Under the pieces are notes generated by a model that was not told the DNA's origin, did no database searches, and was given only the letters and a program-made list of their open reading frames with translations. From Microbacterium terrisoli (GTDB lineage: Bacteria; Actinomycetota; Actinomycetes; Actinomycetales; Microbacteriaceae): 64,000 nucleotides of DNA. This document shows positions 5,597-27,498 of this stretch, in pieces. A program made the translations under genes and the position numbers. Where the stretch lies: positions 2,976,001-3,040,000 of the forward strand of contig NZ_CP133019.1 of the NCBI RefSeq assembly GCF_030866805.1, given 5' to 3'. The number at the start of each line of letters is the position of its first letter. Position 1 is the stretch's first letter.

Positions 5597-6613
5597 TCAG
5601 GCGAGCCTGTGCTGAAGTTGCTCGCCGCGGACGAACCGCATAAGTTCGCTCAGCCCCAGCTGCAATCCGCGTTGCTGCGTCTGAGCGGTCGCGCCGCCCA
5701 GATGTGGCGAGAGGATCACGTTCGACAGCATGGCGAGCTCCGGCCACGCGCCGTCCGGCTCGCATACGTCTAGCGCGGCGCCGGCGAGGCTGCCTGACAT
5801 CAGCGCGGCCAACAGCGCCGTCTCATCAACCAGGCTCTCGCGTGAGGTGTTGATCAGAACCGCGCCGGGCTTCATGGATGCCAGGAATGGAGCGTCCACA
5901 AGCCTCGTGGTCTCTGGAGTGGCCTTCGCGTGCAGCGTGATCACATCGCTGCGGGCGGACAGCTCACCAAGGCCGACCATTTCGACGCCGGTCGGGTGCT
6001 CCGTCACAAAGGGATCGTGCACCAGTACCCTCATATCGAGCCGACGCGCCTGCCGTCCGACCAGCCTGCCGATCGCCCCATATCCCACGATGCCGATGGT
6101 CAGTCCGCGCGGTTCTCTCCCCGTCCATTGCCCGCCGATGAATGTCGAGTCGAGGTGCCGCCCGCCCGCTTCCGCCAGTTTCACGAGCGACTGGCTCGCC
6201 TGAGGCACACGACGCAGCAGCAGATGCAGATAGGCGATCGTGAGGTCGCAGACCGAAGGCGCATTCTTCGCCGGCGTGTTCACCACGGCCACATCCAGCG
6301 CAGCAGCGGCATCCAGGTCGACGTTGACAGGACCTCCACGCAGGCATACAACGAGTCGGATTTGCCGATGTTGCTCAAGCAGAGTCCGCGTCACCGGCGC
6401 CGCATGCACGACCATCGCCGAATGGTCTGCGATCCACGTCGAGATGACCGCGGGGTCACCCTGATACTCACGCAACGGCGGCAAGTAGGGTCGAGCAACG
6501 GGATCGACAGTGGCATAAGTCGGCTCGATCTCCGGGCGGAGCGCTTCCACCGCGGGCCGCATGACCTCGACTGGCATGTAGCTGTCCCCGATGACCAGAA
6601 CTGACGTCGGCAT
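5597..6613 (-). CDS. D-isomer-specific 2-hydroxyacid dehydrogenase
   Basis: This is an NAD(P)-dependent dehydrogenase that interconverts a D-2-hydroxyacid and the 2-oxoacid. The 338-residue protein has GYGAIG (GxGxxG) at 177-182 followed by an acidic HD at 199-200, which favours NAD. The catalytic set is Arg258 (NTSRES), Glu285 (DVCEPD) and His304 (LSPHLGG). It is transcribed away from the SorC regulator across a perfect palindrome, so it should belong to the same regulon as the sugar importer. A role on a hydroxyacid formed in module A (lactate, glycolate or glycerate) is inference. The family ranges over phosphoglycerate, glyoxylate and hydroxypyruvate reductases. Confidence 0.88.
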   Translation of the reverse strand: MPTSVLVIGDSYMPVEVMRPAVEALRPEIEPTYATVDPVARPYLPPLREYQGDPAVISTWIADHSAMVVHAAPVTRTLLEQHRQIRLVVCLRGGPVNVDLDAAAALDVAVVNTPAKNAPSVCDLTIAYLHLLLRRVPQASQSLVKLAEAGGRHLDSTFIGGQWTGREPRGLTIGIVGYGAIGRLVGRQARRLDMRVLVHDPFVTEHPTGVEMVGLGELSARSDVITLHAKATPETTRLVDAPFLASMKPGAVLINTSRESLVDETALLAALMSGSLAGAALDVCEPDGAWPELAMLSNVILSPHLGGATAQTQQRGLQLGLSELMRFVRGEQLQHRLA

Positions 6614-6644
6614 CTCACCTCCGCATGGATGGACTGAGAGAGTA

Positions 6645-6671
6645 ACATACGTTCAGTTATTGAACGTATGT
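6645..6671. promoter_or_regulatory. Perfect palindromic operator of the SorC regulator
   Basis: ACATACGTTCA at 6645-6655 and TGAACGTATGT at 6661-6671 form a perfect 11-base inverted repeat around GTTAT. It lies between the divergent dehydrogenase and SorC genes, 16 bases before the SorC ATG. The half-site CATACGTTCA recurs near 7715 and 16685, the two other promoters of this locus. Confidence 0.8.
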
Positions 6672-6687
6672 GCAGGAGCGAGGAACA

Positions 6688-7668
6688 ATGACATTCCACG
6701 GCGTCGCCGGCCAACGCAACGCGGAACCACCCCGTCGGGACAACGACACCGAGCATCAAAAGCTCGTACGCGTCGCCTGGCTCTATTACCGCGAGAACCT
6801 GACACAGGCGCAGATTGCTCAGCAGTTGCACGTGTCCCGCCCGACAGTGGCCCGACTCCTCGAACGCGCCAGACAAGCGAGCATCGTGACCATCGACATC
6901 GACACCACCGGGGTGGGTGGGCTCGAACTCATCGATGGACTGCGCCAGAAGTACGAACTCCGAGACATTGTGATCGTGCCGCAGGTGAGCGAGGACAGTT
7001 CTGCCGAGGTGACGAACAGCAGGCTGGCGGTCGAAGCAGCGCAATACATGCGTCGGTTCCTCCGGCCTGGCGCTGTGATCGGCGTGGGGTGGGGTGACAC
7101 TGTGCTGCGTACGTTGCTCGCGCTGAGCCCTTCATCACTGAGCGGCGTCACATTCGCCACAATCACCGGCGGCATCGACGCATACACGACCAAGGTGAGC
7201 GGCACGACCAACAACGGGATCTCGGACTACATCCGTTTCGTGCCGGCCCCGTTGCTGGCTTCCAGCCCCGCCATCGCCTCGGCGCTGCGTCACGAACGCG
7301 CAGTGACGAACGTCTTGGACATGGCGAGGGCGTCGGACGCTGCCCTCATCGGGATCGGTGGCGCCATTGCCACCGCCACGATCCTGCACACAGGCGTCGT
7401 CACGGAACAGCAGATCGTCGACTACCAGCGGCGCGGCGCCGTCGGTGACATTCTCGGCGAGTGGTATGACGAAACAGGCACTGTCCTGGCCGTCGACTTG
7501 CAGAAGATCAGGATCGGGCTGGCCATCCGCGAGTTGCAGACGATGAAACACGTGGTGGGCGTCGCTGGCGGCATCGACAAGCTCGCGGCGATCCGTGGCG
7601 CACTCATGGGCCGCTACCTGCACACCCTCATCACCACCGAGGACGTCGCCCGCGCGCTGGCCTCCTAG
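6688..7668 (+). CDS. SorC/DeoR-family sugar-responsive regulator
   Basis: This 326-residue regulator has an N-terminal helix-turn-helix (LTQAQIAQQLHVSRPTVARL, about 33-52) and a C-terminal sugar-binding domain with GVGWGDTVLRTLLALSP, typical of SorC proteins such as LsrR and EryD. These proteins are usually released from DNA by a phosphorylated sugar. The ATG at 6688 is preferred because AGGAG lies 9 bases before it. A GTG at 6670 would overlap the operator palindrome. It most likely controls itself, the divergent dehydrogenase, the ABC importer operon and the 15.7-16.6 kb operon through a shared half-site. The inducer should be an intermediate made by the PfkB kinase; that is inference. Confidence 0.92.
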   Translation: MTFHGVAGQRNAEPPRRDNDTEHQKLVRVAWLYYRENLTQAQIAQQLHVSRPTVARLLERARQASIVTIDIDTTGVGGLELIDGLRQKYELRDIVIVPQVSEDSSAEVTNSRLAVEAAQYMRRFLRPGAVIGVGWGDTVLRTLLALSPSSLSGVTFATITGGIDAYTTKVSGTTNNGISDYIRFVPAPLLASSPAIASALRHERAVTNVLDMARASDAALIGIGGAIATATILHTGVVTEQQIVDYQRRGAVGDILGEWYDETGTVLAVDLQKIRIGLAIRELQTMKHVVGVAGGIDKLAAIRGALMGRYLHTLITTEDVARALAS

Positions 7669-7714
7669 TCCCTCCAAAGCTCGACCCCTCTCTCCCCGCG
7701 GCGCTCGGCCTGAG

Positions 7715-7743
7715 CAAATGTTCAATGTACGATCATGTGTTTG
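7715..7743. promoter_or_regulatory. Candidate SorC operator upstream of the ABC importer operon
   Basis: CAAATGTTCA at 7715-7724 matches the CATACGTTCA half-site at 8 of 10 positions. A weaker copy, CATGTGTTTG, starts 19 bases later at 7734. The same 19-base direct-repeat spacing occurs at 16685/16704. The site lies about 100 bases before the ATPase start. Confidence 0.55.
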
Positions 7744-7843
7744 ACGTGCGTTCTCACGCTTGTTAGATTCAGCGTGATCGTGGAGGCACCGTGAGCCAGT
7801 CACTGGTGAGTCGGACGCCGCCAGGGAAGGCAAGGTTGCGTCG

Positions 7844-9373
7844 ATGGCCGACACTCCATCCAACAAGAGCACGGCGACCATGCCCCGGTTGAGCATCCGA
7901 GGCGTGAGCAAGAGCTTCGAAGCTGTGCACGCCTTGCGTGACGTCAGCTTCGACATCGCCCCCGGCCAGATCCACGCACTCGTCGGTGAGAACGGCGCCG
8001 GCAAGTCGACCCTTGTGGCTATCATCACGGGTCTTCTCGAGGCGGACACGGGCCAGCTCATCTTCGATGGAGAGCCTGTCCGCTTCCGCAATCCGCTGGA
8101 TGCGCGCGGCAGAGGGCTCGCTGCCGTTTACCAAGACCCGAACCTCTTCCCGCATCTTTCCGTGGCGGAGAACATCTTCACCGGCCAGTACCCGCGCAGC
8201 GGCGGCATCGTCAACACGGCGCAGATGCGTGAGCGGGCGCAGTCCCTCCTCGCCCACCTCGGCTTCGACCTCGACGTCGATGAGCTGGTGGCGAATCTCA
8301 CCGTTGCCGAGTCGCAATACGTCGAGATCGCACGGGCGCTCTCTTCTGATCTGCGCCTGTTGATCCTCGACGAGCCCACAAGCGCACTGACGCCCGGTGA
8401 GGCCAGCAAGCTCTACGACGTCGTCCACAGGCTGCGAAACGAAGGAACCACCATCGTCTGGATCTCTCACCGCATGGAAGAGATCAGCCTCCTGGCGGAC
8501 ACGGTCACGGTGCTTCGGGACGGTCAGCACGTGCAGACATCACCGACAGAAGAGCTCGACTACGCGACGATGATCAAGCTGATGGTCGGCCGATCCGTCA
8601 CGCTCGACGCCGTACCGCGCGAAGAGTCGCTCGGGCCGCCCCGGCTGTCAGTCACAGGGTTGAGCAGCCCCGGAATGTTCGACGACATCACTTTCGACGT
8701 GCACGAGGGTGAGATTGTGGGCGTCGCGGGTCTGGTCGGTTCGGGCCGCTCTGAGATCGCCCAATCGATCTTCGGCATAGGCAGTCGCCCAGCCGGTCGC
8801 GTCGAGGTCGACGGAGAAGTCGTGAACCCACGGTCACCAGGGCACATGGCGGAGCTCGGCGTGGCGTACCTGCCGGAGGACCGGGATATCGAGGGCGTGA
8901 TCGCGTCGATGACGATCTCGGCCAATATCGCCCTTCCGAGTCTGCGCGTCCTCAGCAGGTTCGGCTTCATGAGCCGCCGGCGCGAGCGCGCGCTGGCGGC
9001 AACACAACGCCAAGGTCTGAGCATCAAGGGTGCTATTGGGGACCTCGTCAGTTCCTTGTCGGGCGGCAACCGTCAGAAGGTCGCCCTCGCCCGGTGGCTG
9101 GCGACGCAACCTCGCGTGCTTCTGCTTGACGAGCCGACACACGGCATCGACGTCGGCACCAAGGCCCAGGTGCACGACATGATGCGAGACCTCGCTCGCA
9201 AGAGCCGGCTCGCGATCCTCATGATCTCGTCTGACATGCCTGAGGTCCTGGCGGTCAGCGACCGCATCCTGGTCATCGCCCGTGGGCGCCTGGTCGCGGA
9301 CTTCGACATTCAGGAAGCCTCGCAGGAGAAGATCCTCGCCGCGGCCGCGCGCACGAAGGAGGAGCCAGCGTGA
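7844..9373 (+). CDS. Sugar ABC transporter ATPase (duplicated RbsA/LsrA type)
   Basis: This 509-residue protein is the double ATPase of a CUT2-type sugar importer and works on the inner face of the membrane. The first half has Walker A GENGAGKST (about 51-59) and Walker B LLILDEPTSAL. The second half has a degenerate A loop (VAGLVGSGRSE), the signature LSGGNRQKVALARW and Walker B VLLLDEPTHGID, the normal pattern for RbsA/MglA/LsrA proteins. It is first in the operon with two permeases and a binding protein; its GTGA overlaps the next gene. The start ATG has a GGAAGGCAAGG stretch 10-20 bases before it. Confidence 0.93.
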   Translation: MADTPSNKSTATMPRLSIRGVSKSFEAVHALRDVSFDIAPGQIHALVGENGAGKSTLVAIITGLLEADTGQLIFDGEPVRFRNPLDARGRGLAAVYQDPNLFPHLSVAENIFTGQYPRSGGIVNTAQMRERAQSLLAHLGFDLDVDELVANLTVAESQYVEIARALSSDLRLLILDEPTSALTPGEASKLYDVVHRLRNEGTTIVWISHRMEEISLLADTVTVLRDGQHVQTSPTEELDYATMIKLMVGRSVTLDAVPREESLGPPRLSVTGLSSPGMFDDITFDVHEGEIVGVAGLVGSGRSEIAQSIFGIGSRPAGRVEVDGEVVNPRSPGHMAELGVAYLPEDRDIEGVIASMTISANIALPSLRVLSRFGFMSRRRERALAATQRQGLSIKGAIGDLVSSLSGGNRQKVALARWLATQPRVLLLDEPTHGIDVGTKAQVHDMMRDLARKSRLAILMISSDMPEVLAVSDRILVIARGRLVADFDIQEASQEKILAAAARTKEEPA

Positions 9374-10401
9374 GCGCTGACGCAATGATCGCCCACCGCA
9401 CCCGCAAGCGGTCCTTCGGTGGGGGTGCCCTGCGTGTGAGATTCCTCGGGGTCTTCGCGTTCCTCGTACTGCTCTTCGTGGTGTTCAGCATCCTCGACCC
9501 ACGGTTTCTGACATGGCCGAACGCTCGTAGCATCCTGTTCACCGGGGCCATCCTGGCCATAGCCGCACTCGGGCAGACTCTTGTCGTCCTCACCGGCAAC
9601 CTCGATCTGTCCGTGGGGTCGATCATGGGCCTGACGGCCTACGTGGTGTTCGACATCGCTGGAAAAGTGACAGCGCTTCAGCCGTGGGTGGTGCTGATGG
9701 CGATGATCATCGGTGCGGTGCTCGGCTCGATCAACGGCATACTCGTCACCCTCCTGAAGATCCCGTCGATCGTTGCGACTCTGGGCACCCTGTCGATCTA
9801 CCGAGGTTTCGTCTCGTTCTACGCGAATGCCAAAGAAGTCACCAGTGGGACACTCCCCGCGTGGTCGAAGTCGCTGGCCGCACAGATCTGGCTCGGCTTG
9901 CCCGCATATGTCTGGATCTCCGCAATCTTGGTCGCGATCGTTGCGATTGCGCTGGCTCGACTGCCATGGGGCCGTATGGTCTACGCCTACGGCTCGAATC
10001 CGAAGGCGGCCAGGTTCTACGGGTTGAACAGCACCGGCATTGTGATCGGCGCGTACATAGGTGCGGGCGTGATCGCCGCGATTGCCGGGCTCCTGCTGGG
10101 TGCGCAAGTAGGCAATATCAACTCGCTCCTCGCCAATGGCATAGAGCTGGAGGTGCTGGCCGCGGTCGTGATCGGCGGCGTGAGCATTTGGGGAGGTACC
10201 GGCAGCGTCATAGGCGCCGCGTTCGGGGCGATCGTCCTTGCCACCATCGACAATGGCCTCGTCCTCCTCGGCGTCAACGAGTTCTACCGGCTGATCATCC
10301 AAGGCGTTGCCATCATCGCTGCGGTCGGAATGGATGCCATCATCCAACGCAACGTCCACCGAGCGACATCCCGGCGAAGCATCATGGAGGTCAAAGCATG
10401 A
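9370..10401 (+). CDS. Sugar ABC transporter permease (RbsC/LsrC type), first copy
   Basis: This 343-residue membrane protein belongs to the BPD_transp_2 family, with about 9-10 hydrophobic segments. NLDLSVGSIMGLTAYV and the late GGVSIWGGTGSVIGA are the family landmarks. It starts with GTG overlapping the ATPase stop and ends in an ATGA overlap with the second permease, so all three are translationally coupled. Two different permeases in one operon match the LsrC/LsrD and RhaP/RhaQ arrangement rather than the single RbsC of ribose importers. Confidence 0.92.
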   Translation: MSADAMIAHRTRKRSFGGGALRVRFLGVFAFLVLLFVVFSILDPRFLTWPNARSILFTGAILAIAALGQTLVVLTGNLDLSVGSIMGLTAYVVFDIAGKVTALQPWVVLMAMIIGAVLGSINGILVTLLKIPSIVATLGTLSIYRGFVSFYANAKEVTSGTLPAWSKSLAAQIWLGLPAYVWISAILVAIVAIALARLPWGRMVYAYGSNPKAARFYGLNSTGIVIGAYIGAGVIAAIAGLLLGAQVGNINSLLANGIELEVLAAVVIGGVSIWGGTGSVIGAAFGAIVLATIDNGLVLLGVNEFYRLIIQGVAIIAAVGMDAIIQRNVHRATSRRSIMEVKA

Positions 10402-11411
10402 AGAGCATCGTCGGCCGATTCGGGTGGGAACTCATCCTCATCGTCCTGATCGTCTTGGCGTTCCTGTGGTCGAGCACGCTCTCGCCCTATTTTCTGGACG
10501 GGGTCACTCTCCTCAACTCGGCCGAGTTCTTCGTCATCTTCGTCCTCATGGCATTCGGCCTCTTCCCGATTGTCGTGCAAGGAGAGATCGACATCTCCCT
10601 TGCCTCCACACTCGCCGTGGGCAGCGTCATGCTCGGCGAGTTCTCACATGCGGGAATGCCGCTGGCCATCGCGCTGCCGATCGTGGTCCTCGCTTGTGCC
10701 GTCCTCGGTGCCGTGAACGGCATTCTGGTGGCCGTGGCCGGCCTTCCATCACTGGCAGTCACCCTCGGCACGATGGGCGCGTACCGAGGCATCGCATACA
10801 TCATGGCGGGCGATAGCGGGATGACCGGCTTCAGGCCCGACTACCTTGCGCTGGGATCCACATGGGTCGGCATCGTGCCGATGAACGTGATCGTCGCGCT
10901 GATTGTCGCGATCGGCGCAGGCGTGCTCATGTCGACGACCCGATTCGGTCGAGAGAGCTACGCGATCGGCAGCTCGGCTGCGGCAAGCAGAATGGCGGGC
11001 ATCAATGTGACCGCTGCAAAGGTCATCGCCTTCTCGCTCGCAGGCGCTCTCAGCGGCCTCGCCGGCCTCGTCTGGGTAAGCCAGTATCAATCGGCCCGCG
11101 GCGACAACGCGGACGGCAGCATTCTGTTCGTCGTGACCGCGGTGGTCCTCGGGGGCGTACTCATTCAGGGAGGGTCTGGCCGGGCGATCGGTGTCTTCCT
11201 CTCCCTCGTGCTGCTCGCCACGATCCAGACAGGCATGCAGCTTGCAAACATCCCCGGAACAAGCCAGACGCTCGTCATCGGCATCCTCCTCGTTGCCAGC
11301 ATCGGCCTGCCACACATCGTGACCGTCACCCGACAGCGGCTCGCGCACCGAAGAGCCGCAGGCCGACAGCCGACGAGCAGCACAGCGCCGGGAGTGAACA
11401 CCACGGCATGA
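10398..11411 (+). CDS. Sugar ABC transporter permease (RbsC/LsrD type), second copy
   Basis: This 337-residue BPD_transp_2 permease pairs with the upstream one to form the membrane channel. It has the GEIDISLASTLAVGSV motif equivalent to the partner's NLDLSVGS, and VLGGVLIQGGSGRAIG near the end. The start is the ATG at 10398 that overlaps the stop of permease one; GGAGG lies 8 bases upstream. An open extension further upstream is only the other frame of the first permease. The last 35 residues are polar and rich in Arg and Thr. Confidence 0.92.
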   Translation: MKSIVGRFGWELILIVLIVLAFLWSSTLSPYFLDGVTLLNSAEFFVIFVLMAFGLFPIVVQGEIDISLASTLAVGSVMLGEFSHAGMPLAIALPIVVLACAVLGAVNGILVAVAGLPSLAVTLGTMGAYRGIAYIMAGDSGMTGFRPDYLALGSTWVGIVPMNVIVALIVAIGAGVLMSTTRFGRESYAIGSSAAASRMAGINVTAAKVIAFSLAGALSGLAGLVWVSQYQSARGDNADGSILFVVTAVVLGGVLIQGGSGRAIGVFLSLVLLATIQTGMQLANIPGTSQTLVIGILLVASIGLPHIVTVTRQRLAHRRAAGRQPTSSTAPGVNTTA

Positions 11412-11470
11412 CGACTCGCTCAGCGCTTCCAAGAACCCTTTGATCGAGCACCAATAGGAAAGGCAATCAC

Positions 11471-12532
11471 ATGCGAAAAATCACATCCATCCGAAGCCGG
11501 GTCGCTGCGGGCGCCGCGACGATCCTGTCTGCAGCCATGTTGTTGGCTGCATGTTCGTCAACACCACCCACATCGTCGTCCACTGACAGCGCAGGTGCGA
11601 AGCAAGCGAGCGACGTCAGGATCTTCATGGCGCCGAAGTTCACCGGGCTCGCCTACTTCGAGGTCGCCAAGAACGGCGGTGAAGAGGCGGCGAAGGACCT
11701 CGGCTTCCAGTTCCAGTACATCGGTTCGGATCAGCCTGACGCCACAGCGCAGATCGCAACGCTGACCAACGCGATCCCGCAGAAGCCCGACGCGCTTGTC
11801 GTCAGCGCCATCGATCAGGATGCCGTCGCGCCGGCTTTGAAGCAGGCCATGAAGAGTGGCATCAAGGTCGTCACCTACGATGCCGACGCTGCCGCTGACG
11901 CGCGCGACCTCTTCGTCAATCAGCTGAGCTACAAGCTGGCGGCAGAGACCATGCTGAAGGCCGCGAAGCTCGACTCGCCCGACGGCGGCCTCGTCGCGTT
12001 CATCTCGGCTTCGCCCACCGCCGCCAACCACGCAGCCCACGTCAAGTACATGAAGGAACTGATCGACACCGATCCCGCATACAAGGACTTCAAGTATCTG
12101 GACACGGTGCAGTTCGCCGGGGATGATGCGAAGAAGAGCCAGGACATCGCGTTGAACCTCATCCAGGCTCACCCGGACCTCAAGGTCATCATCTCGTCGT
12201 CCGCGGTCTCTGCACCCGCCGCCGAACAGGCGATTGTGAACGCAGGCCTGCAGAACAAGGTGTATGCGACGGGCTTTGCCCTGCCCAGCTCCGTCAAGGA
12301 CTTCATCAAGAACGGCGATGCGAAGGCGTTCGCGATGTGGGACCCTGCGGAGCTCGGCTACGTGGCGACCGCAGCCGCATTCCAGCTGGCCACCGGAAAG
12401 ATCACCTCGGCTGAAGGACAGGTGGTCGACGCCGGAAAGCACGGCAAGTACACCGTCGGGAAAGACGGCGAGGTCGACTACAACAAACCGTTGATCTTCA
12501 CGAAGGACAACATCGACAACTACAACTTCTGA
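11471..12532 (+). CDS. Sugar-binding lipoprotein of module A importer (LsrB/RhaS type)
   Basis: This is the 353-residue extracellular sugar receptor, anchored as a lipoprotein. The signal peptide ends in the lipobox LLAAC with Cys28, followed by a Ser/Thr-rich linker. The mature part is a periplasmic-binding-protein type 1 fold in the LsrB/RhaS group: APKFTGLAYF, VVTYDADA and a C-terminal FTKDNIDNYNF. In LsrB, AI-2 contacts include an Asp-Gln pair; at the matching place this protein reads PTAANHAAH, so AI-2 is unlikely to be the ligand. The module B receptor is a clear relative but differs in the ligand loops, so the two should bind different sugars. Confidence 0.92.
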   Translation: MRKITSIRSRVAAGAATILSAAMLLAACSSTPPTSSSTDSAGAKQASDVRIFMAPKFTGLAYFEVAKNGGEEAAKDLGFQFQYIGSDQPDATAQIATLTNAIPQKPDALVVSAIDQDAVAPALKQAMKSGIKVVTYDADAAADARDLFVNQLSYKLAAETMLKAAKLDSPDGGLVAFISASPTAANHAAHVKYMKELIDTDPAYKDFKYLDTVQFAGDDAKKSQDIALNLIQAHPDLKVIISSSAVSAPAAEQAIVNAGLQNKVYATGFALPSSVKDFIKNGDAKAFAMWDPAELGYVATAAAFQLATGKITSAEGQVVDAGKHGKYTVGKDGEVDYNKPLIFTKDNIDNYNF

Positions 12533-12541
12533 CCGTTCGCG

Positions 12542-12581
12542 CACTGGCCCGGCAGGATCACCGCATCCTGCCGGGCCAGTG
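12542..12581 (+). terminator. Strong hairpin after the module A binding-protein gene
   Basis: CACTGGCCCGGCAGGAT at 12542-12558 pairs perfectly over 17 bases with 12565-12581 around a 6-base loop. It starts 10 bases after the stop. It lacks a U-tract, and the kinase gene follows 44 bases later in the same direction, so it may be a partial terminator or an mRNA-stabilising stem. Confidence 0.75.
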
Positions 12582-12624
12582 TCATCGGCGCCCACCGTCA
12601 AGGGTGCCCGCAGGCCGGAAAGCT

Positions 12625-13614
12625 ATGATCGGACCCATGATCGCTCAGAGTCCGACGGTGCTTGCCGCTCAGGGCTCGACGCCCCGTCACGCGCTTGCGC
12701 GGGTCCACGTCATCGGCAGCATCAACGTCGACACCATCCTGGCGATGCCGACTTTCCCCGCCCCCGGTACGACCGTGATCGCGACCGATTCGCGACAGGC
12801 GCTCGGTGGCAAGGGGGCGGCCCAGGCGATCGCGTCGGCGCGTTTCGGTGCGCAGACGGGACTGACCGGCTCGATCGGGTCGGATGCAGAAGGCGACGTG
12901 GCGCGGACCACACTGAACGCTCAGGGCGTCGACGACCGGCTGTTGCGTGCGAGTTCGCTGCCGACAGGCCGCGCCTTCGTCTACGTCGACCGCGGCGCAG
13001 AGAACGAGATCGTCGTCGATCCGGGCGCAAACGCCGACCTGAAGACGCTCAGCGCTGGCGACCGAGAGGCCATCCTCGCCGCCGATGTCGTCCTGACGCA
13101 GCTCGAGGTTGGCTGCGCGATCGCATTCGAGGCCATCGAGTTCGCCTCCCAGAACTCTGTCACGGTCATCCTCAACGCGGCTCCGGCGCTCGACCTGCCG
13201 ACCGACATCCTGGCCAAGATCGACTTCCTCATCGTCAACGAACCCGAAGCCACGGCACTCAGCCGTGAAGGCGATGCGATCACTGCGGGCGAGCGGCTCG
13301 CCAGGGCGGTCGGGACGGTTCTGGTCACGCTCGGTGCGCGCGGTGGGCGCCTGCATCGGCGCGGGGCGGCGCCGCAGAGCTTTCCCGCCCTCACGGTCAC
13401 GCCCGCCGACACCACCGGTGCCGGCGATACCGTGTGTGGAGTGTTCGCCGCCGCGATCGCTCAGGGGTGGCAACCGAGCGAAGCGTTCCGGGTCGCACTT
13501 GTCGCCGGCTCGATCGCCACCACAACACGCGGCAATGCGCCCTCGATCCCTGACCGCTCGCGCATCCTTGCAATGTTGCCCGACAGCCGCGGCGCGGCCG
13601 TCGGCCTACCGTAG
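12625..13614 (+). CDS. PfkB-family carbohydrate kinase (ribokinase-like)
   Basis: This 329-residue cytoplasmic kinase transfers phosphate from ATP to a sugar or sugar phosphate. It has VIGSINVDTIL near the N-terminus, GGKGAAQAIASARFG (first PfkB signature) and the second signature VTPADTTGAGDTVCGVFAAA with the catalytic Asp in GAGD. The ATG at 12625 follows GGAAAG, and an ATG at 12637 is also possible. The sequence is most ribokinase-like, but the context (3-epimerase and a rhamnulose-phosphate-type aldolase) suggests it phosphorylates a ketose of module A. Its last 9 bases overlap the 3' end of the convergent aldolase gene. Confidence 0.88.
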   Translation: MIGPMIAQSPTVLAAQGSTPRHALARVHVIGSINVDTILAMPTFPAPGTTVIATDSRQALGGKGAAQAIASARFGAQTGLTGSIGSDAEGDVARTTLNAQGVDDRLLRASSLPTGRAFVYVDRGAENEIVVDPGANADLKTLSAGDREAILAADVVLTQLEVGCAIAFEAIEFASQNSVTVILNAAPALDLPTDILAKIDFLIVNEPEATALSREGDAITAGERLARAVGTVLVTLGARGGRLHRRGAAPQSFPALTVTPADTTGAGDTVCGVFAAAIAQGWQPSEAFRVALVAGSIATTTRGNAPSIPDRSRILAMLPDSRGAAVGLP

Positions 13615-15669
13615 GAACGCCGCCGCGACACCCGAATCCACCGGGATGCTATGTCCCGTCGTCTTGGCCAGGTCACCGCACAGGAGCGCGGCAACGGCCG
13701 CCGCCACATCGTCCGGCACGACCTCGCGCTTCAAGATCGTGCGGCCAGCGTAGTAGCTCCCCAGATCTGCCCGGTCGACGCCGTACAGCTTCGCGCGCTC
13801 GTCGCCCCATCCCCCCTCGAACAGTCCTGACCCGCGCACGACCCCATCGGGGTTCACCCCGTTCACCCGGATGGAGTGCTCGCCGAGCTCGGCGGCAAGA
13901 AGACGCACCTGGTGGGCCTGATCCGCTTTAGCCGCGGAATACGCGACGTTGTGTGTGCCGGCGAAGACCGCGTTCTTGCTGGAGATGTAGATGATGTCGC
14001 CGCCGAGTCCTTGCGCGATCATCACGTTGGATGCCTCTCTGGACACGATGAAGGACCCTCGCGCCATGACGCCGTGCAGCGTGTCCCAGTCCTCGTCGGT
14101 CGTCTCGGCGAGGGACAGACTGCGCGACAGACCTGCGTTGTTGATCACGATGTCAATCCCGCCGAACGCTTCTGCAGCCTCGGCGACTGCCTGACGAACG
14201 GCTGCCGAGTCGCTGACATCGACGTGCACTGCAACTGCGACGTCACCGACCTGGACAGCGCCCGCCGCTGCCGCAATCTCGTCCGCCACAGCACGAGCCC
14301 GCTCCGCGTCCAGATCGGCGACGACCACGCATGCACCCTCTCGGGCCAGACGCAGAGCGATCGCACGGCCGATGCCGTGCCCGCCACCCGTCACGAACGC
14401 CACGCGCGCCGCCAGTGGTTTGGGCTTCGGCCGACGTGCGAGCTTCGCCTCTTCCAGGCTCCAGTACTCGATGCGGAACTTCTCGGCGTCGGGGATGGGC
14501 GCGTACGTCGAGACGGCTTCGGCCCCCCGCATCGCGTTGATCGTATTGACGAAGTACTCGCCTGCCACGCGCGCCGTGTGCTTGTCTGCGCCGAAACTGA
14601 ACATCCCCACGCCGGGGATGAGGAAGACGGCGGGGTCGGCTCCTCGCATCTTCGGGGAATCAGCCGTGGCATTCGCGGAGTAATAGCGCGCGTAATCCTC
14701 GCGGTAGGCCGCGTGCAAGTGGCCGAGGCGCTGCTCGACCAGAGCGAGTTCGCTGTCCCCCGGCAGATCGAGCAGAAGCGGCCGGATCTTGGTACGCAGG
14801 AAGTGATCGGGGCAGCTGCAGCCCAGATCGGCGAGCCGCGGGCATTCACTGCGACTGAGGAAGTCGAGGACGACCTCGGAGTCGATGTAATGTCCGACGA
14901 CCGGCCCGTCGGTGGCGGCCATTCTGCGCAGCAGCGGCGCGAGCACGGCCGCTCGCGCGTGGCGCTCCTGTCGTTCGAGCGCACCGTAGCCCTCACGCAC
15001 GGCCCCGAACGGCGCTGGCGCGCCGTGTTCGTCGATGTACTGCTCGGCCAGCGCGATGATCTCCAATGACCGCTGTCGACATTCGGTGCTGGATGCGCCC
15101 CATGCCGTGATCCCGTGCCCGCCGAGTATGCAGCCGATGGCCTCAGGGTGAGCGCGCTGGATCTGCGCGATGTCCAGCCCAAGCTGGAACCCCGGACGAC
15201 GCCATGGCACCCAGACGACCCGCGCACCGTAGATCCGTCGCGTCAATTCCTCGCCGTCCGCGGCCGTGGCGACGGCGATCCCCGCGTCGGGGTGAAGATG
15301 ATCGACGTGGGGCGCGTCGACGAGCACATGCATGGCGGTGTCGATCGATGGCGGAGCAACTGGCTGTCCGAACATGCAATAGTCGAACAACCCGACCATC
15401 TCGTCTTCGTGTTGGGGTCCACGGTAGACCGCGGAGAGCGCCTGAACGCGGTCGCGGCGCAGCACGGCCAGCCCCCGTTCCGTCAGCGTCCCGAGATCGC
15501 CGCCCGAACCTTTGACCCAGACGACCTCGACGTCGGACCCTGAAGCGGGATCGATGACACAGCCCTTCGCTGACGTATTGCCACCGCCGTAATTGGTCAC
15601 GCGGGGGTCTGCCCCGAGCGTGTGGCTTCTCTCGATCAGTTCCGTGACGACGCTGCCCTGCTGCTGCAT
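13606..15669 (-). CDS. Class II aldolase / short-chain dehydrogenase fusion (RhaEW-like), module A
   Basis: This 687-residue bifunctional enzyme joins a rhamnulose-1-phosphate-type class II aldolase to a short-chain dehydrogenase. The aldolase part (about 1-410) has NYGGGNTSAKG near residue 26, WVKGSGGDLGT and the metal site HVDHLHPDAGI. The dehydrogenase part (about 420-687) has TGGGHGIG for NAD, NNAGLS, and the active-site Tyr and Lys in AYSAAKAD. In the known family it cleaves L-rhamnulose 1-phosphate to DHAP and lactaldehyde, then oxidises the aldehyde to lactate. The ATG at 15669 is chosen because GGAGAGGAG precedes it and the N-terminus aligns with the module B copy. A GTG at 15702 overlapping the epimerase stop is the alternative. 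Confidence 0.9.
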   Translation of the reverse strand: MQQQGSVVTELIERSHTLGADPRVTNYGGGNTSAKGCVIDPASGSDVEVVWVKGSGGDLGTLTERGLAVLRRDRVQALSAVYRGPQHEDEMVGLFDYCMFGQPVAPPSIDTAMHVLVDAPHVDHLHPDAGIAVATAADGEELTRRIYGARVVWVPWRRPGFQLGLDIAQIQRAHPEAIGCILGGHGITAWGASSTECRQRSLEIIALAEQYIDEHGAPAPFGAVREGYGALERQERHARAAVLAPLLRRMAATDGPVVGHYIDSEVVLDFLSRSECPRLADLGCSCPDHFLRTKIRPLLLDLPGDSELALVEQRLGHLHAAYREDYARYYSANATADSPKMRGADPAVFLIPGVGMFSFGADKHTARVAGEYFVNTINAMRGAEAVSTYAPIPDAEKFRIEYWSLEEAKLARRPKPKPLAARVAFVTGGGHGIGRAIALRLAREGACVVVADLDAERARAVADEIAAAAGAVQVGDVAVAVHVDVSDSAAVRQAVAEAAEAFGGIDIVINNAGLSRSLSLAETTDEDWDTLHGVMARGSFIVSREASNVMIAQGLGGDIIYISSKNAVFAGTHNVAYSAAKADQAHQVRLLAAELGEHSIRVNGVNPDGVVRGSGLFEGGWGDERAKLYGVDRADLGSYYAGRTILKREVVPDDVAAAVAALLCGDLAKTTGHSIPVDSGVAAAFLR

Positions 15670-15698
15670 CCCTGACGTCTCCTCTCCGACCGTTCGGC

Positions 15699-16583
15699 TC
15701 ACAGCGCCGGACGATTCGCGGCCGAACGCAGCTGCGCGTCGATGAACCCACGGGCATGCGCGGCGAGATCGGCGTTGTCGCTCCAGAGATCGCGCCAGAT
15801 CGCCAGCGTGTAAGAGAGCTCAGGCATGATGATGCGAGATGAGAAGCTCTCGAAGGTGATCGGACCCGTGTAGCCGATCGCTGCGAGACCCCGGAACAAC
15901 GAGGTGAAGTCGACGTTTCCGGTCCCGAGATAGCCGCGGTGGTTCTCTCCGATGTGCACGTACCCGAGGTGTTCGCCGGCGGTGAGCACTGCCGAGTAGT
16001 TGTCGCTCTCCTCGATGTTCATGTGATAGGTATCGAGATGGATTACCAGGTTGTCCCTGCCGACCTCGCCGACATAGCTGACAGCCTGGGCAGCAGTGTT
16101 CAGCATGTTGGACTCGTAGCGATTGACCAGTTCCAGCCCGATCTGGATGTCTGAACCCGCGGCAGCATCGCACAGTCTCTGCAGCGCGGCGATGGAGTTC
16201 TCGCGACCGAGCCTCGACACCGGTGCGTTGTACTTGCCGAGCGCGCCATAGAGCACACCACCGACGTACAGTGCCCCGAAATCGCGCGCGACGCTGTAGG
16301 CCTCATGCAACAGCCGCTCGCCGGCATGCACACGATCGGGATCCTCACTGCTCACATCAGTCTCGGCGGACAGACCGAACGAGGCCGTGGCCTCCATCTC
16401 GTACTCATCGAGAAGGCGACGCGTCATCGCTGCATCGACCTTGCGCGGGTCCATCAGCAGGATCTCAATCACGTCATAACCGGTCGCTTTCGCACCCTCA
16501 ATCGACGAACGCGCCTCGGCCTCAGACCACCCCCCGGCCCATACGAGCCCGTGAACTCCGACCTTGTTGGTATAGGCAGACAT
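15699..16583 (-). CDS. Ketose 3-epimerase (D-tagatose/D-psicose 3-epimerase family)
   Basis: This 294-residue TIM-barrel enzyme should epimerise a ketose at C3. The metal ligands of the D-tagatose 3-epimerase family are all present with nearly the same numbering: Glu151, Asp184, His210 and Glu245, plus the substrate contacts His187 and Arg216 in the hallmark loop HIGENHRGYLGTG. The ATG at 16583 is chosen for AGAGGGG 7 bases before it. It is first in a two-gene operon with the aldolase fusion, preceded by SorC-type half-sites. The substrate is not readable; a 6-deoxyketose or pentulose would fit the aldolase. A TIM-barrel isomerase of another specificity is possible. Confidence 0.87.
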   Translation of the reverse strand: MSAYTNKVGVHGLVWAGGWSEAEARSSIEGAKATGYDVIEILLMDPRKVDAAMTRRLLDEYEMEATASFGLSAETDVSSEDPDRVHAGERLLHEAYSVARDFGALYVGGVLYGALGKYNAPVSRLGRENSIAALQRLCDAAAGSDIQIGLELVNRYESNMLNTAAQAVSYVGEVGRDNLVIHLDTYHMNIEESDNYSAVLTAGEHLGYVHIGENHRGYLGTGNVDFTSLFRGLAAIGYTGPITFESFSSRIIMPELSYTLAIWRDLWSDNADLAAHARGFIDAQLRSAANRPAL

Positions 16584-16684
16584 CTGAACCCCTCTTCTGG
16601 CCGGAATACGGCGATCTTTGAGGCCGCCCACTGGCGGCGGGCGCACATGCTGTCAACTTAGACGCGGATCCAGACTGAATCAAG

Positions 16685-16713
16685 CATACGTTCATATCAT
16701 GCACATATGTTCA
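16685..16713. promoter_or_regulatory. SorC-type operator with two direct half-sites
   Basis: CATACGTTCA at 16685-16694 equals the half-site of the perfect palindrome at 6645-6671. CATATGTTCA at 16704-16713 is a second copy with one change, 19 bases on. They lie about 100-130 bases upstream of the epimerase ATG, in the spacer shared with the divergent esterase. This ties the epimerase-aldolase operon to the SorC regulator 10 kb away. Confidence 0.7.
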
Positions 16714-19923: not shown

Positions 19924-20925
19924 TCAGCCCTCTGTCGAACGGCGCACGACGAGTTCCGGTCGGAACGTCACATGCCGAGGCGGAAGCGTGTGATCCACGG
20001 ATTCATCGAGCAGGATCCGCATGCCCGTCGCGCCGATCTGCGCGGCGGGCTGGCGGATGGACGACAGCGGCACGGTAGCCGCGGCCGCGAACGCGATGTC
20101 GTCGTAGCCGATCAGCGCCACGTCTTCGGGTACCCGGATGCCGGCGGCGGTCAGGCCGCCCAACAGTCCGATGGCGATGAGATCGTTCGCTGCGAACACC
20201 GCGTCGGGCCGTCCATCAACGCCGCCCGCAGCCAGGACAGCGCTGGCGCGCTGACCCTCAGCAATGCTCAACGCCGTCAGCTCCACCACTTCCAGACGTG
20301 CGTCTGGATGCTCTGCCGCAGCGTCACGAGCGCCGAGAAGCCGGTCCTCGACTTGCGCGATGCCCCGCGGCCCAGCAACGTAGGCAATGTGCCGGTGCCC
20401 GCGGTTCAGCAGATGCCCGACCGCCAACGCGCCACCCAGGCGATCGTCCACCGACACGGAGCTGAATGAGTGGTCCGAGCTGGCTCGATCGACCAGCACG
20501 GTCGGGATGCCTCGCCGTCGCAAGGCGCGTAGGCGCTCATCGACATCCCCGAACGGAGTGAGCAGAACACCGCGTAACCGCTGCTGTTCGAACAGGTCCA
20601 GGTAGGCCCGTTCACGATCGGGACGCTCCCCTCCGTCGCCGACGATGACGGCGAGTTCTGCCGCCTGCGCGACATCTTCAGCACCACGAGTCAGGTCGGC
20701 GAAGAACGGGTTTGTCATATCCAGCACGATGAGCCCGACCGCACTGCTGCGGCCTGCGCGCAATTGCCGCGCGGCATCATTGCGGACAAACCCGAGCTCA
20801 TCGATGGCCGCGCGCACCCGTTCGGCAGTTGCGGCACTGACATGCTGTGGCCTGTTGAGCACGTTCGATACGGTGCCCACGGAGACGCCGGCACGCGCCG
20901 CGACGTCTTTGACGCTCACCGTCAT
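19924..20925 (-). CDS. LacI-family repressor of the rhamnose locus
   Basis: This 333-residue repressor begins VSVKDVAARAGVSVGTVSNVLN, the LacI DNA-binding helix-turn-helix and hinge, followed by a periplasmic-binding-like ligand domain. The ATG at 20925 is preferred over a GTG at 20970 because LacI proteins start a few residues before the first helix. It is divergent from the rhamnose importer operon, and two LacI-type operator-like sites lie between them. It should repress the operon until L-rhamnose or an intermediate binds. The pattern resembles actinobacterial rhamnose regulators; the ligand is inferred from the neighbours. Confidence 0.9.
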   Translation of the reverse strand: MTVSVKDVAARAGVSVGTVSNVLNRPQHVSAATAERVRAAIDELGFVRNDAARQLRAGRSSAVGLIVLDMTNPFFADLTRGAEDVAQAAELAVIVGDGGERPDRERAYLDLFEQQRLRGVLLTPFGDVDERLRALRRRGIPTVLVDRASSDHSFSSVSVDDRLGGALAVGHLLNRGHRHIAYVAGPRGIAQVEDRLLGARDAAAEHPDARLEVVELTALSIAEGQRASAVLAAGGVDGRPDAVFAANDLIAIGLLGGLTAAGIRVPEDVALIGYDDIAFAAAATVPLSSIRQPAAQIGATGMRILLDESVDHTLPPRHVTFRPELVVRRSTEG

Positions 20926-20983
20926 TGGAGTCCCTACCGCCGGAGCTGTCTCGGCGACGCCGGCTTTCACATGATAGCGAGTC

Positions 20984-20995
20984 TATAACGTTTCA
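20984..20995. promoter_or_regulatory. LacI-type operator 1 (regulator side)
   Basis: TATAACGTTTCA matches the LacI-type palindrome TGAAACGTTTCA at 10 of 12 positions. It lies 59 bases upstream of the repressor ATG, well placed for autoregulation. Confidence 0.5.
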
Positions 20996-21026
20996 CTAAG
21001 GGGCTGCCATCGTCGCAGCACGCCTC

Positions 21027-21055
21027 TTGACATTCTCTACCGATACAGTCACAAT
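21027..21055 (+). promoter_or_regulatory. Promoter of the rhamnose importer operon
   Basis: TTGACA at 21027-21032 and CACAAT at 21050-21055 are separated by 17 bases, a good sigma-70-type layout. The -35 box is a consensus match, which is rare in this GC-rich window. Confidence 0.55.
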
Positions 21056-21071
21056 CGGTGACGCGGCTGAT

Positions 21072-21083
21072 TGTAACGATTCA
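21072..21083. promoter_or_regulatory. LacI-type operator 2 (operon side)
   Basis: TGTAACGATTCA matches TGAAACGTTTCA at 10 of 12 positions and shares ten bases with operator 1. It lies just downstream of the predicted -10 box, where a bound repressor would block transcription. Confidence 0.5.
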
Positions 21084-21144
21084 TTTTTGCGACACAGCGC
21101 AATTCCCGCGCGGGCACCCGCGCCTCACTGTGGAGGTACACGCT

Positions 21145-22722
21145 TTGACGGAGCCGTCAGCTGGCGATGCCGGCAGCCCGCTGCTGGAACTGTCGCACGT
21201 CGCGAAATCCTTTGGACCGGTGATCGCCCTCGCCGACGCGGATCTCACGGTCCGCGCCGGGTCCATCCATGCGCTGGTCGGCGAGAACGGCGCGGGCAAG
21301 TCGACACTGGTCAAGATCATCGCGGGCCTGTACCACCGTGACAGCGGCTCCTTCAGATTCGCGGGTGCCCCCGTCGACTTCCGGTCCACAGCCGAGTCCA
21401 AGCACGCCGGGATCGCCGTCATCTACCAAGAGCCGACGCTTTTTCCTGACCTGTCGGTCGTGGAGAACATCTTCATGGGTCGCCAGCCGACCACCCGCAC
21501 CGGTGGCATCGATCGGCGTGCCATGGTCACCGAGGCCGAACGCATCTTCCGCCGCCTCGGAGTCCACATCGACCCCCAACGGCCCGCAGAAGGATTGTCG
21601 ATCGCCGACCAGCAGCTCATAGAGATCACCAAGGCCATCTCACTGGATGCGAAGTTGATGATCATGGACGAGCCGACCGCTGCCCTCAGCGGCGTAGAAG
21701 TCGATCGATTGTTCACCGTCGCACGCAGTCTGCGCGACGAAGGACGCGGCCTCGTCTTCATCTCCCACCGTTTCGACGAGGTGTTCGCGCTGTGCGACGA
21801 GATCACGGTCATGCGCGACGGCCGCTACGTCTCCACTGACAAGACCACGTCCGTCACCGAAGACGAGATCGTCCGCCGCATGGTGGGACGCGACGTCACC
21901 GAGCTGTTCCCGAAAGTGGACGCGCAGATCACCACGCCACTCCTCGAAGTGCGAGGGCTCACGTCGCCGGGCACCTTCGAAGGCATCGATCTGACGGTGC
22001 GCGCCGGTGAGATCGTCGCACTGGCCGGGCTGGTGGGCGCCGGTCGCAGCGAGATCGCCCGAGCCGTCTTCGGCGTCGACAGATACTCCGCAGGCTCCGT
22101 CACCATGAAGGGCGTTCCTGTCCGACCTGGCGACCCATCCGCTGCGATCGCCGCCGGCATCGCCTTCGTCCCCGAAGACCGACGCAAGCAGGGACTGGTC
22201 ATGGAGGCGACCATCGGCCGCAACACGGCACTGGCCATCCGCGACCGACTCGCGACAACAGGACTGATCACATCACGTCGCGAGAACACCGTCGGCCGCG
22301 AATGGGCCGACCGTCTGCGGGTGAAGGCCTCGGCCCTCGACACCATCGCCGGCACTCTCAGCGGCGGAAACCAGCAGAAGGTGGTGCTCGGCAAGTGGCT
22401 CGCAACCGACCCGCAAGTGCTCATCATCGATGAGCCCACGCGCGGCATCGACGTGGGCACGAAGTCCGAAGTGCACCGGCTGCTGTCGGAGCTGGCCGGG
22501 CGGGGCATCGGGATCCTGATGATCTCGTCCGAGCTCCCCGAAGTACTCGGCATGGCGGATCGCGTCCTGGTCGTGCGGGAAGGGCGCATCACTGCCGAGC
22601 TGGACCGCGCCGAAGCCACGGCCGAAACCGTGATGTACGCGGCCACGCACGCGGCCGGCGTGAGCAACCCGTCACCGGCGTCGACGACGACCGCCGCCGA
22701 CAGCGAGGAGACCGACCGATGA
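21145..22722 (+). CDS. Rhamnose ABC transporter ATPase (duplicated, RhaT-like)
   Basis: This 525-residue double ATPase powers the module B importer. Walker A GENGAGKST and LMIMDEPTAAL are in the first half; GLVGAGRSE, LSGGNQQKVVLGKW and VLIIDEPTRGID are in the second. The TTG at 21145 is chosen because GGAGG (21132-21136) lies 8 bases before it and the protein then starts shortly before the ATPase fold. The open frame continues further upstream to 21058 but would cross operator 2. The stop overlaps the next ATG. It is paralogous to the module A ATPase. Confidence 0.92.
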   Translation: MTEPSAGDAGSPLLELSHVAKSFGPVIALADADLTVRAGSIHALVGENGAGKSTLVKIIAGLYHRDSGSFRFAGAPVDFRSTAESKHAGIAVIYQEPTLFPDLSVVENIFMGRQPTTRTGGIDRRAMVTEAERIFRRLGVHIDPQRPAEGLSIADQQLIEITKAISLDAKLMIMDEPTAALSGVEVDRLFTVARSLRDEGRGLVFISHRFDEVFALCDEITVMRDGRYVSTDKTTSVTEDEIVRRMVGRDVTELFPKVDAQITTPLLEVRGLTSPGTFEGIDLTVRAGEIVALAGLVGAGRSEIARAVFGVDRYSAGSVTMKGVPVRPGDPSAAIAAGIAFVPEDRRKQGLVMEATIGRNTALAIRDRLATTGLITSRRENTVGREWADRLRVKASALDTIAGTLSGGNQQKVVLGKWLATDPQVLIIDEPTRGIDVGTKSEVHRLLSELAGRGIGILMISSELPEVLGMADRVLVVREGRITAELDRAEATAETVMYAATHAAGVSNPSPASTTTAADSEETDR

Positions 22723-24781: not shown

Positions 24782-24843
24782 CCACACCGGCACGGCCGGC
24801 ACCCCCTATCAACACCCCTGTACCACCGATGAAAGGAACTCAC

Positions 24844-25899: not shown

Positions 25900-25911
25900 T
25901 CGACCTCGTCG

Positions 25912-25936
25912 GGTGGTCGGCTCCGTGCCGGCCACC
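25912..25936 (+). promoter_or_regulatory. Hairpin between binding-protein and mutarotase genes
   Basis: GGTGGTCGGC at 25912-25921 pairs with GCCGGCCACC at 25927-25936 over 10 bases, one pair being G-U, around a 5-base loop. Such stems after binding-protein genes often raise the receptor mRNA level relative to downstream genes. Confidence 0.5.
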
Positions 25937-25956
25937 GACGTCGAAAGGCAACCCCT

Positions 25957-26319
25957 ATGACTCGCGTCTGCTTCGAGCTGCATGTCAAGCCCGAACTGCT
26001 CGACGAATACATCGCGAGACACACGCCGGTGCGGCGCGAGATGCTCGACGAGATCGCGGCTGCAGGTCGACGGAACTATTCGCTGTTCCTCGCCGACGGC
26101 GGACGGCTCATCGGCTATTACGAAACAGACGACGATCAGGCCGCGCAGGCGTATCTGGCCGCATCGCCGGTCGCGACGACGTGGGAGGCCGAGATGGCGC
26201 CCTACTTCGTCGGCCTCGACGGACGTCCCGACCAGGCGGCCACACCCCTCACCGAGATCTTCCACCTCGCCGATCAGCAGGCCGCGGCATCCCCCAACGA
26301 AGAAAGCGACGCATCATGA
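25957..26319 (+). CDS. rhaM: L-rhamnose mutarotase
   Basis: This 120-residue protein interconverts the anomers of L-rhamnose after uptake. Tyr18 and His22 sit at the positions of the catalytic pair in E. coli RhaM, and RNYSLFL (39-45) and a Trp at 76 belong to the same pocket. It is slightly longer than the E. coli enzyme because of a polar C-terminal tail. AAAGG precedes the ATG. The stop overlaps the isomerase start (ATGA). Confidence 0.93.
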   Translation: MTRVCFELHVKPELLDEYIARHTPVRREMLDEIAAAGRRNYSLFLADGGRLIGYYETDDDQAAQAYLAASPVATTWEAEMAPYFVGLDGRPDQAATPLTEIFHLADQQAAASPNEESDAS

Positions 26320-27482: not shown

Positions 27483-27498
27483 AGCGATGGAGAACAGC

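Follow-up and report, generated by a model that had tools for sequence, protein, structure and literature searches.

A conserved gene module with SorC-type operators in Microbacterium terrisoli and its candidate role in the use of a rare ketopentose

Gene content and paired operators

The subject of this analysis is a candidate sugar-catabolic module of Microbacterium terrisoli, located in a 64,000-nucleotide stretch of its 3.63-Mb genome (contig NZ_CP133019.1, positions 2,976,001 to 3,040,000; hereafter the window, whose numbering is used unless another locus is named). Nine intact genes within positions 5597-16646, arranged as three transcription units, encode a D-2-hydroxyacid dehydrogenase (2HADH), a SorC/LsrR-family regulator, an ATP-binding cassette (ABC) importer with its sugar-binding lipoprotein, a PfkB-family kinase, a RhaEW-type aldolase/dehydrogenase fusion and a ketose 3-epimerase (Table 1). 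An earlier note, made from the sequence of the window, had assembled these components under one SorC regulator and outlined a route from a ketose to its 3-epimer, a phosphate, dihydroxyacetone phosphate (DHAP) plus an aldehyde, and a hydroxyacid; every gene that it named was confirmed in place, each with an unbroken frame. The epimerase and aldolase genes overlap by 4 bp, and the 3' ends of the convergent PfkB and aldolase genes overlap. The starts adopted for SorC, PfkB and the epimerase give proteins shorter than the longest frames would, in agreement with the lengths of entries P0001, P0121 and P0157 in the database.

The case for shared control comes from the promoters: each of the three promoter regions contains a pair of 14-bp dyads of the TGAACATATGTTCA type with a spacing of 19 bp. 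A first operator scan of the window returned three pairs at 38.0, 35.1 and 25.9 bits, followed by the next at 1.6 bits—a result that is partly circular, because the half-site used to locate the sites in related genomes had been taken from the window. The matrix subsequently applied to the window was trained on the sites of three relatives with orthologous loci, namely two genomes of the same family (G893 and G1070) and a more distant actinobacterium (G305), and a leave-one-genome-out analysis was run across the four module loci. This design lessens the circularity and keeps some of it, since the training sites were chosen by eye; neither the 19-bp spacing nor the 7711 site was used as a seed. 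With the relatives-only matrix, the pairs at 6642, 7711 and 16681 rank as the top three of the window (scores in Table 1), and the next-best pair reaches 4.1 bits. The leave-one-genome-out analysis recovered nine pairs across these loci, each of them upstream of a module gene, with scores of 28.5-43.9 bits; three of the nine fall in G893, two in G1070 and one in G305. The best other pair in these loci scores 12.0 bits and overlaps a true site (7.6 bits without overlap), and the best pair in 15 other loci (280 kb), used as a control, scores 11.4 bits. At the 2HADH/sorC promoter of the relatives, G1070 has a lone dyad and G305 no dyad. No paired operator precedes the PfkB gene in the ranking of the window, and this gene may be transcribed together with the importer genes. 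The pair in front of the transporter operon overlaps a -35-like hexamer in a manner that would fit repression. The predicted co-regulation of the module genes by SorC is well supported, and the three paired operators found with the relatives-trained matrix bear out the single regulon that the earlier note had assumed.

Between the lipoprotein and kinase genes lies a perfect 18-bp hairpin; a 78-base stretch there folds at -53.5 kcal/mol (z -7.3), and the element may set the protein ratio within the operon. The hairpin was not called as a terminator in a generic scan, which performed near chance (two promoter-like sites with 1.3 expected, two terminator-like sites with 4.3 expected), and an Rfam scan of positions 5000-32000 gave zero matches.

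Table 1. Positions of module genes, operators and neighbouring features in the window
Feature	Position	Strand	Remarks
D-2-hydroxyacid dehydrogenase (2HADH)	5597..6613	-	transcribed away from sorC; present in all four module loci
Paired operator, 2HADH/sorC intergenic	6642..6674		weakest of three, 28.5 bits
SorC/LsrR-family regulator	6688..7668	+	longest frame from 6670
Paired operator, upstream of transporter operon	7711..7743		35.0 bits; -35-like hexamer 7741-7746 overlapped by three bases
CUT2-type sugar ABC importer ATPase	7844..9373	+	
ABC permease 1	9370..10401	+	
ABC permease 2	10398..11411	+	
RhaS/LsrB-like sugar-binding lipoprotein	11471..12532	+	68-79% identity to counterparts in other three module loci
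Perfect 18-bp hairpin	12541..12582	+	between lipoprotein and kinase genes
PfkB-family kinase	12637..13614	+	longest frame from 12604; below ribokinase cut-off; in variable kinase slot
RhaEW-type class II aldolase fused to short-chain dehydrogenase	13606..15702	-	
Ketose 3-epimerase, L-ribulose 3-epimerase/AgDAE group	15699..16583	-	longest frame from 16646
Paired operator, upstream of epimerase-aldolase unit	16681..16713		38.0 bits
Neighbouring L-rhamnose module (context only)	19924..30962		LacI-type regulator, ABC importer with RhaS, RhaM-like protein (assigned by eye), RhaI, RhaEW, RhaB-like kinase

Orthologous loci and distribution

All three orthologous loci keep the 2HADH, SorC, the importer, the binding protein and the aldolase, and the kinase slot differs between them: PfkB in the window, a RhaB-like kinase in G1070, and a ribulokinase together with AraD in G893 and G305. 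Both ribulokinases pass model PRK04123 (572.7 bits in G893 and 618.8 in G305; cut-off 428), and the AraD of G893 passes PRK06557 (348.5 bits; cut-off 251); that of G305 was assigned through its 72% identity to the G893 protein. The kinase is not a fixed component of the module, its type changing while the importer, regulator, 2HADH and aldolase stay. The epimerases of G893 and G1070 share 70-71% identity with that of the window, and in a tree of 39 rows the three form one group (100/99). A joint search for SorC, PfkB, the epimerase and the aldolase fusion had been proposed in the earlier note; what proved constant across the three relatives is the set of importer, SorC, 2HADH and aldolase, with the kinase type varying and the epimerase absent from the G305 locus. 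The three family genomes also hold, in each case, a separate cluster with RhaI and a second RhaEW, as well as AraA elsewhere and AraD nearby, so the module is not simply one for rhamnose or arabinose; in G305, AraA gave no match and RhaI a weak match only (1.4e-10).

Carriers of the module are few. Searches with SorC recovered it in 3 of 349 sampled genomes of the family (our own, G893 with 65% and G1070 with 63% SorC identity) and in 2 of 396 from the phylum (our own and G305, 57%). In the genus, 2 of 149 genomes have a SorC match, our own and G170 (39%), where the gene adjoins another kind of transporter and the contig is 4.6 kb long; the remaining samples yielded 1 of 248 in the order of G305 (G305 itself), 1 of 347 in an order-level sample (our own) and one of the two genomes in the genus of G893 (G893 itself). 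The E-value thresholds were 1e-60 for the genus, 1e-65 for the phylum and 1e-80 for the remaining samples, and all these samples overlap; a plasmid collection gave no SorC match at 1e-50. This patchy spread fits horizontal transfer.

Co-occurrence was also assessed among homologue records, with shared contigs inferred from exactly equal base counts. Among the matches listed (the best 120 of 219 for SorC, the best 120 of 4951 for the epimerase and 36 of 36 for PfkB), SorC and epimerase homologues stand together on at least eight contigs of at least 9 kb besides our own genome, and SorC and PfkB homologues on at least three; a jittered control gave 0.03 and 0.006, respectively. One further SorC and epimerase contig, of 2096 bases, may be a chance match, and the listing is incomplete, in that the epimerase of G1070 was not found under its contig. 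First searches with the epimerase returned, apart from its own gene, relatives at 53% identity or less, and the rest of the module was not found in 20 epimerase neighbourhoods searched with the window proteins or in six annotated plasmid loci.

Enzyme families and the proposed route

A rhamnose module begins about 3 kb beyond the epimerase and scores above the curated cut-offs for RhaS (390.0 bits), RhaI (640.6 bits, cut-off 531.35; positions 26316-27482) and RhaEW (1321.1 and 1005.3 bits). Its RhaEW shares 66-67% identity with the module aldolase, which passes TIGR02632 (941.4 bits; cut-off 567.75) and falls just under PRK08324.1-1 (1149.2 against 1152). In a tree whose 29 RhaEW rows from the genus are the loci returned out of 112 genomes with a match, the aldolases of the window, G893 and G1070 group apart from 32 RhaEW rows (96/85; 97/91 with G305 included), a placement made less sure by long-branch warnings, foremost for G305. 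At nine positions, the three module aldolases share one residue and the 12 RhaEW proteins compared share another. The aldolase fusion itself is common in the genus, with a match in 112 of 149 genomes; among the matches listed, our own genome is the only one in the genus with two complete copies, and G161 has four partial pieces. Judged by its sequence, the module aldolase/dehydrogenase is a diverged paralogue of RhaEW, with the true rhamnose module alongside.

A plain rhamnose reading of the module was rejected on model cut-offs and absent genes: rhamnose isomerase was not found among the nine module proteins, the kinase is a PfkB protein (a RhaB-like one occurs in the G1070 locus only), and the lipoprotein stays under the RhaS model TIGR02637 (266.5 of 342.25). 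A related proposal is import of 6-deoxy-L-psicose or L-rhamnulose, epimerisation to give L-rhamnulose and subsequent degradation as in the breakdown of rhamnose. The RhaS-like binding protein, the RhaEW paralogue, the RhaB-like kinase of G1070 and the adjacent rhamnose module speak for it; it nevertheless seems quite unlikely, given that a separate RhaEW and a RhaB-like kinase, together with RhaI, are already encoded in every one of the three family genomes, that AraB and AraD work on pentuloses, and that we know of no such free sugar that is common. At the side of the module towards the rhamnose genes, an adjoining gene (16798-17763) encodes an alpha/beta hydrolase; in the rhamnose clusters of G893 (L119:7389-8222) and G1070 (L120:7824-8609), relatives with 40% identity to it are encoded between rhaI and rhaEW.

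For the epimerase, the nearest solved relatives are 7cj4-7cj9 and 5zfs, then 3vyl. Its motifs LELVNRYE, HLDTYH, YVHIGE and ITFESF align with those of 5zfs and 7cj4, presenting the Glu, Asp, His and Glu residues that we take to be metal or catalytic ligands, and the protein scores under the D-psicose (D-allulose) 3-epimerase model NF051856 (168.6 of 300). Structures 5zfs and 3vyl are AgDAE and MlLRE (PMC8167858), and 7cj8/7cj9 are probably MetLRE, because the pair differs by the Y9I and Y37F changes given in that paper. MetLRE, AgDAE and MlLRE peak on L-ribulose, at 82.1, 121.3 and 230 U/mg (PMC8167858 Table 2).

Related 3-epimerases also occur in other settings. In G048, of the same genus, a rhaM-rhaI-rhaEW-rhaB-epimerase run (L078:6868-12757) places an epimerase gene 60 bp behind rhaB, its product 52% identical to that of the window; this run is an independent pairing of a different ketose 3-epimerase with rhamnose enzymes. 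Neighbouring pairs of ketose 3-epimerase genes, 40-48% identical to the window's, are found in three genomes of the genus (G016, G020 and G044; L080, L081 and L034). On a plasmid of Rhodobacter sp. CZR27 (L090:11016-16071), a gene for a regulator with a sugar-binding domain directly precedes a related 3-epimerase gene (42.5%), and the locus also encodes a sugar kinase, a protein resembling a tagatose-bisphosphate aldolase subunit and dehydrogenases—perhaps a parallel epimerase-kinase-aldolase route. Additionally, a plasmid of Aureimonas sp. AU20 (L094:1998-10900) carries a related epimerase beside a LacI regulator, a sugar ABC importer, an FGGY kinase and a protein resembling fuculose-phosphate aldolase that scores below the cut-off of this family.

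The PfkB kinase scores under the ribokinase model TIGR02152 (230.6 of 299.65), and a plain ribose reading was rejected on this cut-off. The Asn of the GGKGANQA loop, which we take to be the ribose-binding substrate site in RbsK, is Ala in the window protein and is missing in 14 of the 18 sequences aligned (of 36 matches). Regulator and importer resemble LsrR and LsrABCD, and an LsrF-like protein is encoded beside the G305 locus; an Lsr-type system for uptake and processing of autoinducer-2 (AI-2) or a related signal has, in our estimate, next to no chance all the same. The scores for LsrR (227.7 of 486), LsrB (167.7 of 384), LsrA (388.6 of 586), LsrC (196.9 of 388) and LsrD (151.7 of 500) are all under the equivalog cut-offs, LsrK, LsrF and LsrG found no match among the nine module proteins, and the AI-2/Lsr reading was set aside on these two counts. 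In G305 (L077:6956-9295 and 12227-14074, the module aldolase with its degenerate dehydrogenase domain included), an LsrF/DhnA-like aldolase and a XylB-like kinase lie beside the 2HADH.

We propose that the SorC-controlled module imports a rare 2-ketopentose of the L-ribulose/L-xylulose pair and splits it after phosphorylation at C1, a claim whose chances we put close to even. AraB and AraD act on L-ribulose and L-ribulose-5-phosphate, and RhaD-type aldolases act on the 3R,4S series, L-xylulose-1-phosphate included. The E. coli rhamnulokinase also accepts L-xylulose (PMC3245297), and RhaD activity on L-xylulose-1-phosphate is reported in PMC7341569. As L-ribulose and L-xylulose are C3 epimers, the different kinases and the epimerase converge on this one pair of sugars. 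The kinases of the relatives (AraB with AraD, or a RhaB-like protein), together with the L-ribulose preference of the characterised epimerases, argue for a ketopentose rather than a 6-deoxyketose; the substrate class, for which the earlier note had allowed both, is thereby moderately narrowed to a pentulose, with the 6-deoxyketose option disfavoured.

The gene classes predicted for an L-xylulose-1-phosphate pathway are present, namely a 3-epimerase, a kinase, a rhamnulose-type aldolase and a fused dehydrogenase. The ABC importer would bring in the ketopentose, the 3-epimerase would interconvert L-ribulose and L-xylulose, and the kinase (PfkB here, the rhamnulokinase relative in G1070) would place a phosphate on C1 of L-xylulose. 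The RhaE-type aldolase would then split L-xylulose-1-phosphate into DHAP and glycolaldehyde, the latter to be oxidised to glycolate by the fused RhaW-type dehydrogenase; the separate 2HADH would act on glycolate/glyoxylate. The RhaEW of Chloroflexus converts L-rhamnulose-1-phosphate to DHAP and L-lactate (PMC3870299). SorC would repress the three promoters through the paired operators until an inducer appears. As an outline, the order of steps given in the earlier note is supported, and an acid still stands as the end product, with the refinement that it would be made by the dehydrogenase fused to the aldolase rather than by the 2HADH. This general scheme—imported ketose, epimerisation, phosphorylation, aldol cleavage and oxidation—is more secure than the specific pentulose claim, for which the chances are nearly balanced.

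The same chemistry could run on a ketohexose, from D-tagatose through D-sorbose to D-sorbose-1-phosphate or from L-psicose through L-fructose to L-fructose-1-phosphate, giving DHAP and glyceraldehyde and then glycerate; in the D-series variant, the 2HADH would act on D-glycerate/hydroxypyruvate. The C3/C4 stereochemistry of these 1-phosphates suits a rhamnulose-type aldolase, and the solved relatives of the 2HADH include glycerate/glyoxylate and phosphoglycerate dehydrogenases; we consider the proposal unlikely, as AraB and AraD, present in two orthologous loci, are pentulose enzymes. The epimerase speaks on both sides, its relatives also acting on ketohexoses while the three characterised enzymes favour L-ribulose (PMC8167858). 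To a D-series ketopentose, D-ribulose, handled as in the enterobacterial Rbl and Aau systems with the epimerase as a side branch, we would give a very small chance. The RhaD-type aldolase expects the 3R,4S configuration and D-ribulose and D-xylulose are 4R; AraD, an L-ribulose-5-phosphate enzyme, would moreover be idle. In its favour, ABC import of the free sugar is shown for Rbl/Aau, and AraB can phosphorylate D-ribulose (PMC12307932).

Several observations weigh against the L-ribulose/L-xylulose proposal itself. The window aldolase sits on a long branch (1.42) and alone differs from RhaEW at 24 otherwise invariant positions. In the kinase slot, the ribulokinases fall under TIGR01234 (487.1 and 529.4 of 583.25), AraD under TIGR00760 (144.9 of 389.1) and the RhaB-like kinase of G1070 under its cut-off (360.3 of 527.95), as does the RhaB of the window's own rhamnose cluster (389.0 of 527.95). 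No 1-kinase was found in the visible part of the G893 cluster, which may be cut, since the contig starts 1 kb before the epimerase. The G305 locus has no epimerase, and its aldolase retains the aldolase motifs but not those of the dehydrogenase, which means that G305 cannot carry out the complete route in the form proposed; two of the three SorC and PfkB contigs have no epimerase among the best 120 epimerase matches listed. On the biochemical side, AraB makes 5-phosphates, oxidation of glycolate dependent on nicotinamide adenine dinucleotide is thermodynamically poor, the 2HADH, present in every one of the four loci, lacks a firmly assigned role, and L-ribulose is not established as an environmental nutrient. 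AraB also takes D-ribulose (PMC12307932), and MetLRE is broad, with 81% of its L-ribulose activity on D-ribulose and 65% on D-allulose (PMC8167858).

Known systems and significance

No description of such a module was found in the open-licence literature, at the level of the titles and abstract openings listed; in this scope, the earlier view that the combination matches no known system holds, and the module brings known enzyme families together in a conserved regulon that we found nowhere described. The proposed route is known chiefly from engineered strains. The rhamnose enzymes of E. coli also handle L-lyxose through L-xylulose-1-phosphate. Such handling is hinted at in PMC6443609, and an engineered E. 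coli route combines an epimerase with RhaB and RhaD from L-ribulose, the resulting L-xylulose-1-phosphate pathway making glycolate or ethylene glycol from L-arabinose (PMC6443609, PMC7341569). As far as these sources describe it, the engineered pathway is alike in joining a 3-epimerase, a kinase, a rhamnulose-type aldolase and aldehyde oxidation to take L-ribulose to DHAP and glycolate, and the G1070 locus (epimerase, RhaB-like kinase and RhaEW) equals it enzyme class for enzyme class. It differs in using E. coli genes with a Pseudomonas epimerase (tagatose 3-epimerase) and in being fed by AraA from L-arabinose, whereas the window module is a single regulon with its own importer and a PfkB kinase.

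The L-rhamnose module with RhaEW (PMC3870299) is alike in its RhaEW-type fusion and RhaS-like importer; the window module is without RhaI and RhaM and has instead a 3-epimerase, PfkB, SorC operators and an aldolase outside the RhaEW clade. MetLRE, AgDAE and MlLRE, the closest characterised relatives of the epimerase, are described in vitro, without an operon role in the available part of PMC8167858. The nearest known ketopentose importers that we found are Rbl and Aau (PMC12307932), which likewise take up a free ketopentose through an ABC transporter and use a kinase that is either dedicated to the system or borrowed. They differ in their substrate, D-ribulose, and in their FGGY kinase, where the window has PfkB and a ribulokinase occurs in G893 and G305 only; in addition, the Rbl locus, as described, has no 3-epimerase or aldolase. 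With the Lsr system (LsrR/LsrACDB), the module has the regulator and transporter superfamilies in common; it differs in the absence of LsrK/F/G and in its sub-threshold scores.

The most far-reaching reading is a natural, dedicated L-xylulose-1-phosphate pathway for scavenged L-ribulose/L-xylulose, built on a duplicated RhaEW and served by three interchangeable kinase types in one regulon, a tentative interpretation to which we assign somewhat less than an even chance. If true, it would give a physiological role to ketose 3-epimerases studied for D-allulose production and would be a natural counterpart of pathways that PMC7341569 places under the heading of non-natural ones. Rare-sugar and glycolate engineering would gain three parts from it, namely an importer, a ketose kinase and a sensor whose operators are mapped. 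Finally, the module would be a compact example of how a catabolic regulon, based on a duplicated rhamnose enzyme, can change its type of kinase and keep its importer, sensor and aldolase.

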